DNA of 64,000 nucleotides from NCBI GenBank assembly GCA_958296125.1, contig OY282444.1:4759266-4823265 (forward strand), read 5' to 3'. Shown one piece after another: positions 8,103 to 12,369 of this stretch (position 1 is its first letter; the number at the start of each line of letters is the position of its first letter). The notes below the pieces were generated by a model. That model worked only from the letters and a program-made list of their open reading frames with translations, had not been told where the DNA came from and ran no database searches. This DNA is from an uncultured Poribacteria bacterium (GTDB lineage Bacteria > Poribacteria > WGA-4E > PCPOR2b). The position numbers and the translations under genes were made by a program.

Positions 8103-10610
8103 CTATTTGACTATCACCATCCGCCGTACCGCAGTATAATCCCTCGCCCGGAGTTGATAGAAATAGATTCCACTCGTGACCGATTCCCCACTTTCGTTGC
8201 GGCCGTTCCAATATGCTGCTCTCCGCCGATCTGTGTAATATCCCGCCAATTGATGTCCCAAATCCAACCGACGCACTAACGCCCCCTTTATGTCATAAAC
8301 CGTGAGTGTTACCTCCGCATCGTGAGCGAGGTGATACGGTATCCATGTCACCGGGTTGAACGGGTTTGGGTAGTTGGGCAACAGGGCAGTTTTTTTCGAG
8401 GTCAATGATTCCAAGAGCTGCTCTAAGAAGAGAATCCCTCTTCGCAATGTTGCATCCGTGAGGTGTAACCCTTGTGCTTGAGTAATCCACCCTTGGACAT
8501 CGCCGACGGTCAGGGTTGCGAGCATTAAAGATTGCGCGGAAGGTGCAGCTGCAGCGTCCCCTAATGCCCCGGCAACCGCGACAAGATCGAAAATATTGAC
8601 AATACCATCCTCGTTGATATCGGCATCATTCTGTCCTGTCTGCCCGAAACGGGAGCCAATGAACATCAAATCCGAAATATCCACCACACCATCGCGGTTG
8701 GCATCTCTGAGCCGTAGTGATTTCGTTATAAAGGGAATGCCCCACAGGAGCACCGTGCCATCCAAACTCCCACTGGCGAGGGTCTGTCCATCCGGGCTAA
8801 AGGCAACGCTCCCGACCACATCTGTATGCCCGGTGAAGTGCCCCTGGTGTGTGCCTGTTATCCCATCCCACAAACGGATAGTATCGTCAGAACTCCCACT
8901 GGCGAGGGTCCTGCCATCTGAACTAAATGCGACGCTCCTGACACTATCTGTATGCCCGATGAGGGTCTGCTTGTGTTCCCCCGTGATGGCATCCCACAGA
9001 CGCACTGTGCCGTCCGACCCCCCGCTGACAAGTGTCCTACTATCTGGGCTGAAGGCGACACTATTGACCCAAGTATGTCCGGTGGGGATTATTTTTTCTT
9101 CACCTGTGATGGCATCCCACAGACGGATGGCTTCCCCACGACGGGAAGCAGAACCCAGATCCACACCTCCACTGGCGAGTATCCTCCCATCTGGGCTGAA
9201 GGCAACGCTCTCAACCCCATGCTTTTGTCCGGTGAAAGCCCGCTTGTGTTTACCTGTGACAGCATCCCACAGACGCACTGTGCCGTCCGACCCCCCGCTG
9301 GCGAGGGTCCTACCATCCGGACTGAAAGCAACGCTCAAGACATTATCCGCACGTCCGGCAAGGGTCATTTTGTGTTCACCCGTCCCGACATCCCACAGAC
9401 GCACTGTGCCGTCCGACCCCCCACTGGCAAGTGTCCTCCCATCCGGGCTGAAGGTGACATCCCATATACTATTATCCCTATGTCCGGTGAGGGTCATTTT
9501 GTATTCACCCGTTATGACATCCCATAGATGGATAGTCTTGTCATTCCAATTCCAACTACTAGCGAGGGTGTCCCCATCTGGACTGAATGCGATGTTACTA
9601 ATAGACTTCGTATACCCGGCGAGGGTCATTTTGGGTTCACCCGTCCCGACATCCCACAGGCGCACGGTGCGATCCCAACTCTGACTAGCAAGGGTCCGTC
9701 CATCCGGGCTGAAGGCGAGACTTTGTACCCAACTCGTATGTTCGGTGAGGTTCATTTTGTGTTTACCCGTTGCGACATCCCATAGCCGGATGGTGTCCTC
9801 ATAACTTCCACTGGCGAGGGTCTGTCCATCCGGGCTAAAGGCGACGGTCAGAACCGAATTCCTATGCCCGGTGAGGACCTGCTTGTGCTCGCCTGTTACG
9901 ACACCCCATAACCGGATGGTCTCATCGTAACTCCCACTGGCGAGGGTGTTCCCATCCGGGCTGAAGGCGATACTACTGACCCAATCCCTATGTCCAGTAA
10001 GTGTACTTTTTTGTTCACCTGTAACAGCATCCCACAATACGATGCTGTCCCGACTTCCACCGGCGAGGGTCCTGCCATCTGGACTAAATGCGACGCTATT
10101 GACCTCACCCGTATGCCCGATGAGTGTACTTTTTTGTTCACCTGTAACAGTATCCCACAATACGATGCCATCCTGACTCCCACTGACGAGGGTCCCGCCA
10201 TCTGGACTAAATGCGACGCTATTGACCTCAGCCGTATGCCCGATGAGCGTGCCATTGTGTTCACCTGTAACAGCGTCCCACAGATATACGATGCCATCCC
10301 AATTCCCACCGGCGAGGGTATTCCCATTCGGACTGAAGGCGACACTACTGACCCAATCCCTAGGCCCGGTGAGTAGACCTATCTCTTGATAGGTTGCCGT
10401 ATCATAGAGCCAAATACCGATGGCACTGGAAACCGCAAGCCGAGTACCATCGGATGAGTAGGCAATATCACCAGTTATCATGCCTTTACCCAGACGTGCT
10501 TTGGCACCTTTAGGTAAACTCCATTGTAGGGAATCTTGAGCGAAACCGTTCGGTACAAACGCGCGTGTTGCAAAGAGGGTGATTAACGTCAAAAATAACG
10601 CGGTTTTCAT
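8103..10610 (-). CDS. Secreted 14-repeat WD40 protein with dockerin-like segment and C-terminal sorting-type domain
   Basis: 835 residues; AAGGAG lies about 10 bases before the ATG at 10610. An N-terminal signal peptide (hydrophobic about 4-22) is followed by 14 WD40 repeats of about 42 residues ([20 protein letters not shown]), enough for two seven-bladed propellers. Next is a dockerin/EF-hand pair ([26 protein letters not shown]), a spacer, and a last 95 residues with [15 protein letters not shown] and GIYFYQLRA. That ending closely resembles the one in the LRR protein at 32-36.7 kb and Por/FlgD-Ig-like sorting domains. It is probably exported and displayed or secreted as a binding scaffold; no catalytic motif is visible. 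The repeats are very similar at DNA level, suggesting recent duplication. Confidence 0.85.
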
Positions 10611-10770: not shown

Positions 10771-10931
10771 TGATTGCCCGCCATTGGTCCATTGCTTCCA
10801 CAAGCTTATAGACGATGAAAATCTGCGAAAGTGGGCAGATATTTTCTAAGGATAGACACCATAACACACGCTTGCCTTCTATGTCAAGCCGAAATTGACA
10901 GGTATAATCCCTTGACAGTAATTCTCACAAG

Positions 10932-10987
10932 CCCAATGCTTGCCTGCCTGTCCCGTTCGCGGGGGTCTCGGCACGGACAGCATTGGG
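10932..10987. repeat. Left-end palindrome of the IS element
   Basis: CCCAATGCT (10932-10940) pairs perfectly with AGCATTGGG (10979-10987). Inside, CTGTCC (10948-10953) can pair with GGACAG (10975-10980), and CCCG-TTCG-CGGG forms a small hairpin at 10952-10963. Subterminal hairpins like this are bound by TnpA in IS200/IS605 elements. Confidence 0.65.
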
Positions 10988-11005
10988 TCAAACGGCGTTT
11001 TTTTA

Positions 11006-11034
11006 TTGCAACCATAGTAAAAATGTGTTATAAT
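11006..11034 (+). promoter_or_regulatory. tnpB: Strong promoter for tnpB and its structured leader
   Basis: TTGCAA (11006-11011), a 17-base spacer and a perfect TATAAT (11029-11034). Transcription should start about 11041, exactly where the structured leader begins. Confidence 0.7.
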
Positions 11035-11040
11035 TGAATG

Positions 11041-11112
11041 TCTTTCAGTGAGGGAGTAGCGCACCGCCGCTCGGCGGTGTCCCTCACATCCTGCGCTACA
11101 GGATATGAAAGA
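11041..11112 (+). ncRNA. Structured leader RNA upstream of tnpB, three-way junction or pseudoknot
   Basis: Nearly every base can pair in perfect helices. The outer stem TCTTTCA (11041-11047) pairs with TGAAAGA (11106-11112). P1 is GTGAGGGA (11048-11055) with TCCCTCAC (11080-11087). P3 is ACCGCCG (11063-11069) with CGGCGGT (11072-11078). The 3' arm can be ATCCTG (11088-11093) with CAGGAT (11099-11104). Alternatively, GTAGCGCA (11056-11063) can pair with TGCGCTAC (11092-11099), an 8-bp helix that excludes the 3' arm and crosses P1, forming a pseudoknot. The predicted transcript 5' end coincides with the outer stem, and the tnpB start follows 15 bases after the structure. It could be a cis-regulatory RNA, a ribozyme-like element or a DNA cruciform used by the transposon. 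Confidence 0.6.
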
Positions 11113-11127
11113 TAGAGAAATATTCCT

Positions 11128-12336
11128 ATGTTAAAAACTCACACAATCGCATTAGCCCCAAACAACGTCCAAGCGACCCAGTTTGCCCAGCATTGTGGTT
11201 ACGCCCGGGTCGCCTACAATCACGGATTAGCCGACTTCAAAACAGGACTTGATGAAGGTGTCTGGCATTCGCATATAGACCTGTGTCGCCGTTTCAATGC
11301 TATCAAGCATGATACATACGATTGGTGCGGTGATATGTCACAGAACGCCTCCAAGAATGCGATTTACACAAATCTCAACGATGCCGTCAAACGCTGGCGG
11401 TCGGGTCAAAACAGATTCCCTAAGTTTAAGAAAAGGGCTCATAGCAAGAGTTACCAAGCCGATAGCGGTCGAGGCACAATCTCTGTCGTAGGCAAGCGAA
11501 TTAAACTCCCCAAAATCGGTTGGGTTCGCATGTTTGAAAACCTACGCTACCTCGGCACGATTTGCAAAGTTGTTATCTCTAAACACGGGCACCGTTGGTT
11601 CGCTTCTATTCTCGTTGACACATTCGTTGATGACCCAATATCTGACCCACGCGGCAAGCCTATTGTTGGTGTAGACGTTGGCATCAAGCATTTAGCCGTA
11701 ACGTCGGAAAGACAGTATTTTGAGAATCCGAAAGCATTGCGTCGGCATGAACGGAAACTCAAACGGCTTCAGCGTCAATTCAGTCGCAAAGTCAAAGGCA
11801 GCCGCAACTGGTATAAACTGAAGGACAAGATAGCCAAGTTGCACTATCGGATAACCTGCATTCGCAAGGATGCCCACCATAAGGCGACAACGGCTATTGT
11901 CAAAGGTGCAAGTCGTATCGGCATAGAATCGTTGAACGTTGCGGGTATGATAAAGAATCATAGACTTGCTAAAGCATTGGCAGATGCGTCATTGTCAACG
12001 TTCCTTGAGATGTTGAAGTATAAAGCCGAACAGATGGACGTAAAGATAATTGAAGCAGACAGATTTTATCCGTCAAGTAAGACCTGTTCTGCATGTAGTG
12101 TGGTAGACAGCGACTTATCTTTATCTGATAGGACATATCATTGTAGGGCTTGTGGTCATACACAAGACAGAGACTTAAACGCTGCGATAAACCTTAGAAC
12201 CGTCGCCGAGGGGCACTCGGAGACTGAAAACGCCTGTGGAGATTCTGTAAGACCTCAGCAGTTGGGGCGCGAATCGTCGAATCAGGCAGATAGCACAGTA
12301 ATAGATGAACAATTATTGCTGTTCAGTCTATCATAG
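11128..12336 (+). CDS. tnpB: TnpB, RNA-guided RuvC nuclease of IS200/IS605 elements
   Basis: 402 residues, the normal TnpB size. The RuvC-like triad is readable as D183 (VGVDVGIKHLA), E267 (GIESLNV) and D349 (DRDLNAAINL), with a zinc ribbon C320/C323...C339/C342 between the last two. An N-terminal helix-turn-helix/wedge region precedes it. TnpB is known to cut DNA using an omega RNA transcribed from the element's right end, next to a TAM equal to the left target site. The gene looks intact: no frameshift and all three acidic residues present. The Shine-Dalgarno site is weak and directly follows the structured leader, so translation may be controlled there. No transposase gene accompanies it. 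Confidence 0.92.
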   Translation: MLKTHTIALAPNNVQATQFAQHCGYARVAYNHGLADFKTGLDEGVWHSHIDLCRRFNAIKHDTYDWCGDMSQNASKNAIYTNLNDAVKRWRSGQNRFPKFKKRAHSKSYQADSGRGTISVVGKRIKLPKIGWVRMFENLRYLGTICKVVISKHGHRWFASILVDTFVDDPISDPRGKPIVGVDVGIKHLAVTSERQYFENPKALRRHERKLKRLQRQFSRKVKGSRNWYKLKDKIAKLHYRITCIRKDAHHKATTAIVKGASRIGIESLNVAGMIKNHRLAKALADASLSTFLEMLKYKAEQMDVKIIEADRFYPSSKTCSACSVVDSDLSLSDRTYHCRACGHTQDRDLNAAINLRTVAEGHSETENACGDSVRPQQLGRESSNQADSTVIDEQLLLFSLS

Positions 12337-12369
12337 GAATCCCAAGCATTTATGTTTGGGAGCAGTCAA
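12200..12369 (+). ncRNA. Predicted omega RNA (TnpB guide RNA scaffold), 5' limit approximate
   Basis: By analogy with characterised IS605-type elements the guide RNA covers the 3' part of tnpB and the right end. The right-end hairpin CCCAAGCAT/ATGTTTGGG (12341-12360, TT loop, one G-U pair) and the closing AGCAGTCAA (to 12369) are visible. The guide would be the flanking bases from 12370. The 5' boundary is a guess. Confidence 0.45.

Follow-up and report, generated by a model that had tools for sequence, protein, structure and literature searches.

Organization of the tnpB element

The window, by which we mean the whole stretch of 64,000 nucleotides that was analysed, lies in the genome of an uncultured Poribacteria bacterium, which consists of one contig of 5.16 Mb. 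It contains a TnpB-only element of the IS200/IS605 type, whose ends were set by comparison with the other copies in the same genome. TnpB is the ancestor of Cas12, and work on its control has centred on the omega RNA at the 3′ end of such elements; to our knowledge, the restraint of TnpB cutting by cells and elements is poorly understood. The element and its larger features are as follows.

10912-10915, target NTGA, after which the element starts
10916-12369, forward strand, TnpB-only IS200/IS605-type element
10932-10987, forward strand, left-end hairpin CCCAATGC..GCATTGGG, read from the sequence, its loop interrupted by an inserted repeat; not part of the leader
11006-11034, forward strand, sigma-70-like promoter read from the sequence: TTGCAA (11006-11011), 17 nt, TATAAT (11029-11034)
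11128-12336, forward strand, tnpB, 402 aa, frame intact (PF01385, 2e-27; PF07282, 2.5e-21; PF12323, 2.2e-8)
12226-12369, forward strand, 3′ region where an omega RNA is expected, by position and fold only; no match to the leader

The left end reads CAGTAATTC.. and the right end ..GCAGTCAA; the left-end motif is present in eight of nine copies in this genome and the right-end motif in seven, and the left ends were also aligned. The tnpB product carries OrfB_IS605 and Cas12f1-like TNB domains, and the TnpBs that are 76-77% identical to it come from Candidatus Poribacteria. At an identity of 85% or above the genome yields 11 tnpB matches, of which two are the halves of a single broken gene. The left-end hairpin recurs in other copies, where its loop is short; in the window the loop holds a short palindromic repeat resembling CCTGTCCCGTTCGCGGGGGTCTCGGCACGGAC (10940-10979), and a related palindromic repeat sits inside one hairpin (P3, below) of the leader L039; sister copies are without the insertion. 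Three loci of this genome (L017, L019, L021) have the left end and the promoter and no leader, and in L017 a right-end motif follows soon after, so it may be a short derivative. The neighbour of the element, on the reverse strand at 8103-10610, encodes an 835-aa WD40-repeat protein with a C-terminal tail that we take to be of the sorting type.

A pseudoknotted leader upstream of tnpB

Positions 11040-11113 open the tnpB message as its 5′ untranslated leader, which in the predicted transcript is a pseudoknotted RNA of ∼75 nt. It has four helices, P1 to P4, and a pseudoknot between a bulge and the loop of P4, with the strands, all in the forward sense, listed here.

11040-11046, 5′ strand of P1, GTCTTTC, predicted transcript start; pairs with 11107-11113
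11048-11055, 5′ strand of P2, GTGAGGGA; pairs with 11080-11087 (fold, parsing, covariation)
11056-11061, 5′ strand of the pseudoknot, GTAGCG, in the bulge between P2 and P3; pairs with 11094-11099 (covariation)
11062-11079, P3 hairpin CACCGCC-GCTC-GGCGGTG, arms 11062-11068 and 11073-11079
11080-11087, 3′ strand of P2, TCCCTCAC (fold, parsing, covariation)
11088-11104, P4 hairpin ATCCT/AGGAT, arms 11088-11092 and 11100-11104 (parsing, covariation)
11094-11099, 3′ strand of the pseudoknot, CGCTAC, inside the P4 loop (parsing, covariation)
11107-11113, copy 1, GAAAGAT, the 3′ strand of P1a (parsing, covariation)
11115-11121, copy 2, decayed here to GAGAAAT (GAAAGAC in relatives), between copy 1 and the ATG (alignment)

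An earlier note on this DNA had described these helices and a predicted transcript beginning at the outer 7-bp stem, which is P1, and we find them so placed, with the promoter just upstream. A −10-like hexamer ends 5-6 nt upstream of the leader in 60 of 70 parsed leaders, a spacing that would start the predicted transcript at about the first leader nucleotide. The leader folds as RNA with a minimum free energy of −37.8 kcal/mol, against −20.7 ± 2.9 for 200 shuffled sequences, none of which does as well (z = −5.9). With DNA folding parameters the z-score is −7.2, as extreme as that for RNA, so that folding energy alone does not separate an RNA from a single-stranded DNA structure. This raises the alternative that the constraint acts on DNA, either as TnpA-recognized palindromes at the element end or as repeated operator boxes of a repressor, since the P1 strand and the two copies can be read as three such boxes. 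The sequence variation described next makes this very improbable, as do the location of the left-end hairpin elsewhere and the leaderless copies with left end and promoter; by the same position and the same three loci, the left-end hairpin or a TnpA site is ruled out as an identity for the leader.

Relatives of the leader and covariation of its helices

Genomes were searched with two covariance models, R1 built from 11 leaders of the same genus and R2 from 10 leaders of family f3, both with structures that omit the pseudoknot and the pairing of copy 2. R1 matches 17 of 97 genomes, with 30 matches in the genome of the window, and R2 matches 48 of 97, with up to 44 matches per genome; together they place the leader in at least 51 of the 97 (three by R1 only), all of families f1 and f3. 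The motif does recur upstream of other tnpB genes, the outcome for which the earlier note had proposed such a search. Within the phylum R2 matches 48 of 84 genomes, and none of 54 genomes of other phyla or of the 13 other-phylum genomes among the 97, an empty result that carries no weight by itself because the search had no positive control. Plasmids gave no match, phages only 20-nt chance matches, and three further viral pattern scans found no leader. The type-c leaders of one genome (G045) were found only by reading upstream of tnpB, and the models thus miss subtypes.

Two alignments were examined, A7 with 30 R2 matches (30 genomes, a single locus per genome) and A8 with 43 leaders closer to that of the window, damaged leaders included. 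Standard pairs fill 99.5% of 960 cells in A7, with 21 of 32 pairs changed on both sides in 163 double-sided cells, while slid controls are 26-40% paired. All five misses fall in pseudoknot columns and trace to a single misaligned row (L224), whose pseudoknot pairs when that leader is parsed directly. In A8, 94.3% of 1307 cells are paired, and 24 of 31 pairs have changed on both sides (197 double-sided cells); P1a is 96.0% paired with double-sided change in six of seven pairs, and the pseudoknot 92.0% paired with double-sided change in all five counted pairs. The search models lack the pseudoknot, yet it covaries, in A7 at five of seven pairs. Neither the pair percentage nor the covariation score was reached by any of 500 shuffles in A7 or in A8, although the shuffles ignore kinship. 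At paired positions G.U outnumbers A.C by 21:1 in A7 and 60:24 in A8, which fits a structure in the transcript sense and, together with the covarying pseudoknot, argues against a constraint on DNA. Covariation thus shows that the pseudoknot and all four helices, P1 as P1a, are formed in the sense of the predicted transcript.

Both the pseudoknot and P4 covary within the same sequences in A7 and A8 and are hence compatible. It had been proposed that the pseudoknot and a hairpin ATCCTG/CAGGAT exclude one another; this is wrong, since the P4 loop itself supplies the pseudoknot strand, and a switch between these two helices is ruled out. What does hold is a structured 5′ RNA that covaries in homologous elements and is neither the left-end hairpin nor the omega RNA region at the 3′ end; neither an absence of covariation nor matches confined to left-end palindromes, the outcomes named beforehand as counting against it, occurred.

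Upstream of the tnpB copies in the window's own genome, a sequence difference in one strand of a helix is matched by a difference in the other. The pseudoknot is GTAGCG/CGCTAC in the window and elsewhere ATAGAG/CTCTAT, ATTGTAG/CTACAAT, ATGTCG/CGACAT, GTTGCA/TGCAAC, GTTCGG/CCGAAC, GACTAA/TTAGTC or GTATCA/TGATAC. Its mean pairwise distance is 0.39-0.42, whereas P3 has 0.30, P2 0.17 and the 5′ strand of P1 0.14, and such variability with pairing retained fits a helix kept for pairing alone. The 25 leaders of the window's genome likewise have few P1 strands and many pseudoknots.

The parsed set comprises 81 leaders, of which 70 were parsed and 11 were not; as read, two of the latter (L077 and L087) are P3-less and the others carry deletions or mismatches. 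A further 60 upstream regions yielded 26 parsed at a score of at least 60, only one of which (L092) joined the 81; an automatic search for the P3-less subtype parsed only some of 26 regions, and the others were read by eye. Parsing requires a pseudoknot of at least 5 bp, so that pseudoknot pairing within the parsed set holds by construction, and the A7 and A8 counts are free of this. In four loci (L180, L183, L186, L194) the tnpB frame is lost or broken and the leader pseudoknot is damaged, as expected under relaxed selection; L037 is a counterexample, with an intact tnpB frame and no pseudoknot.

A second copy of the closing strand next to the start codon

The true mutually exclusive pairing predicted in the leader is that of the 5′ strand with either copy 1 (P1a) or the near-identical copy 2 (P1b). 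The earlier suggestion of a switch is plausible, although the pairings it named, pseudoknot or P4, are not the ones that compete; the choice that recurs is between copy 1 and copy 2. On A7, P1b is paired in 98.1% of 210 cells, 20 of them double-sided. It reaches at least 7 bp in 53 of 70 parsed leaders, and 51 of 68 leaders have at least 7 bp of complementarity between copy 2 and their own 5′ strand, against 175 of 3858 swapped strands. Copy 2 is weak in some leaders, among them that of the window, where its decay leaves P1b only 5 bp.

The copies abut in type-a leaders (CCTGATA CCTGATA), are separated by one base in the window's genus, and lie ∼8-17 nt apart in P3-less leaders as judged by eye. 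The second pairing of G045 extends further and uses a different register (GTTACCGTT/AACGGTGAC as against CCGTTG/CAACGG), and is therefore not merely a copy of the first. The energy of P1b minus that of P1a has a median of 0.9 kcal/mol, with 38 of 62 leaders within 2 kcal/mol, the pseudoknot being ignored in these energies; the near-equality arises largely because the copies are alike.

Copy 2 ends 4-7 nt upstream of the ATG in 49 of 58 leaders, and a Shine-Dalgarno-like motif is found in only 4 of 58, compared with 25 of 44 long open reading frames of the window and 14% of random 19-mers, which places copy 2 at the ribosome site. These two observations are also consistent with a leader that recruits or positions the ribosome, the pairing of copy 2 setting the distance from the body to the ATG and replacing the Shine-Dalgarno sequence, so that P1b would be the on state; a pseudoknotted body, presumably rigid, would suit this. 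We regard it as unlikely because a helix at about −5 to −12 would normally block the mRNA channel, and because copy 2 of genus g1 (AGAAAG) could itself pair with the 16S rRNA end CUUUCU.

A long-range partner for the pseudoknot and P1 strands in the 1.5 kb downstream was considered and rejected: their 7-mers recur in 5/38, 5/38 and 3/50 cases, against 0.085, 0.118 and 0.105 per element with swapped strands. Upstream, 6-mers of the pseudoknot and P1 strands are likewise about as frequent as under swapping.

Genes downstream of the leader

The gene after the leader encodes TnpB, with both domains by Pfam, in seven of seven tested cases of different kinds, a count that leaves out three genes picked as exceptions, which are not TnpB. 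TnpBs that are only 22-33% identical to one another can each be preceded by a leader. In genus g1 the leaders of such distant TnpBs (22-33% identity, apart from one pair at 76%) are 63-77% identical, a likeness within the genus that is overstated because the sample was drawn with the leader models; in another genus, locus L200 has a TnpB 58% identical and a leader 53% identical. Association with TnpB genes might suggest autorepression, in which TnpB bound to the leader would shut down its own synthesis, but likeness that follows host genus more than TnpB family makes a host component or a second leader the likelier partner, rather than any single TnpB, and in model searches the leader is unlike the 3′ region; we consider autorepression quite unlikely.

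No leader was seen upstream of tnpB in five loci (L066, L075, L081, L082, L089), in which tnpB overlaps the upstream gene; in three of three tested, that gene encodes an IS607-type resolvase (tnpA) with a MerR domain.

A few leaders precede other genes. L196 (G000:C1:2207791-2209800) has leader and promoter before a 588-aa chromosomal gene with no Pfam match, and its pseudoknot is intact, copy 2 is lost and its own AAGGAG is kept; the orthologues of this gene in five genus mates have no leader. L198 precedes a 449-aa non-TnpB protein with no Pfam match and also has an intact pseudoknot and no copy 2, and L216 precedes a 145-aa non-TnpB protein with a sub-threshold match to UPF0242. On a 54-kb viral contig (IMG/VR; L237:2516-2600) a promoter and a full-length type-a leader are followed by a small non-TnpB protein with DGTHPFLGGK-like repeats.

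Retention of the pseudoknot with loss of copy 2 in L196 and L198 would be expected if the fold served to protect the 5′ end of the message, or were a stable trans-acting small RNA like the 5′tnpA RNA of IS200, with regulation of tnpB secondary. That P1 starts at the predicted first nucleotide also favors this, as does the IS200 precedent (PMC12594629). Such a role is doubtful in our view, as it leaves the complementarity of copy 2 beside the ATG unexplained.

A proposed model for control of tnpB translation

From the observed fold and its two competing closing partners we infer, with moderate confidence, that the leader would act in cis as a gate on tnpB translation, its first helix moving from one copy to the other; the assignment of the on state and of the trigger is tentative. 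The folded body would be rigid and hold the 5′ end of the message next to the start codon. With the 5′ strand on copy 1 the start region would be open, and with it on copy 2 a helix of 7-8 bp would cover the Shine-Dalgarno position and translation would stop. As P1a and P1b are close in energy, the equilibrium could be shifted by ribosomes, by a host factor or by a further RNA, which would hold the nuclease at a low level. In the window element, where copy 2 has decayed, the switch may be weakened. Several observations weigh against gating: nothing evident would anchor the ribosome in the open state of leaders that lack a Shine-Dalgarno site; copy 2 is weak in the window element and some others; three leaders precede other genes, with copy 2 lost in two of them; and L037 lacks the pseudoknot although its tnpB frame is intact.

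The few P1 strands and many pseudoknots among the 25 leaders of the window's genome hint at a broader reading, which is speculative and rather improbable: the leader might be a common translational gate for divergent TnpBs of one order, in which shared closing strands would let dozens of selfish messages restrain each other in trans and private pseudoknots would keep each folding on itself.

A conserved 5′ RNA common to divergent TnpB families offers a point of control that can be tested, a small RNA part with two states and a means of detecting and grouping such elements, and it also occurs on a viral contig and ahead of genes of the chromosome.

Comparison with known RNA families

At the gathering score Rfam matches only tRNA in the window and does not match the leader, which receives only chance matches at permissive E-values; in nine other upstream regions every match falls well short of the gathering score. 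A catalytic RNA, which the earlier note had also entertained, is not borne out: no Rfam ribozyme matches the leader or the nine other regions, and an unpaired core shared by every subtype was not seen. Type-a leaders do have invariant UU and AAA joiners, which by eye are not seen in the other subtypes. Titles and opening abstract lines of the open-licence literature, a body of work that mostly excludes subscription papers, do not describe a 5′ leader RNA of tnpB, and a word search of the paper on the processing by TnpB of its own mRNA gave no mention of one (PMC10278001). Given no Rfam match and, within that literature, no such leader, we regard it as a new RNA family whose functional kind is already known.

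The folds of omega RNAs often contain a pseudoknot. The leader resembles the TnpB omega RNA (reRNA) in coming from the same kind of element, but differs in lying at the 5′ end and not 3′ of tnpB ending at the right end; it has no match at the 3′ end, where neither R1 (in the window) nor R2 (30 loci with 30 matches, one each) found a second copy. Nor does it have the place of a TnpA-bound left-end hairpin, which lies at the element end and is kept in short derivatives. With ribosomal protein leaders and riboswitches it shares a position in the 5′ untranslated region, helices with tertiary pairing and a possible alternative pairing at the start codon, P1a and P1b resembling an expression platform; unlike those in Rfam, it reaches no family's gathering score, and a ligand pocket common to all subtypes was not identified.

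Transposable elements provide closer parallels. In ISPpu9, another insertion sequence, the transposase message is reported to be regulated through structure in its 5′ untranslated region (PMC8450116). The 5′ untranslated region of IS200 tnpA forms a stem-loop that hides the ribosome site and is the source of the 5′tnpA small RNA (PMC12594629). It is the nearest precedent among those compared: both are structured 5′ leaders in elements of the IS200/IS605 group with pairing over the ribosome-binding region, which is where P1b is positioned, and they differ in that IS200 has a stem-loop before the transposase gene tnpA, whereas here a pseudoknot with two possible closing strands precedes the nuclease gene tnpB.
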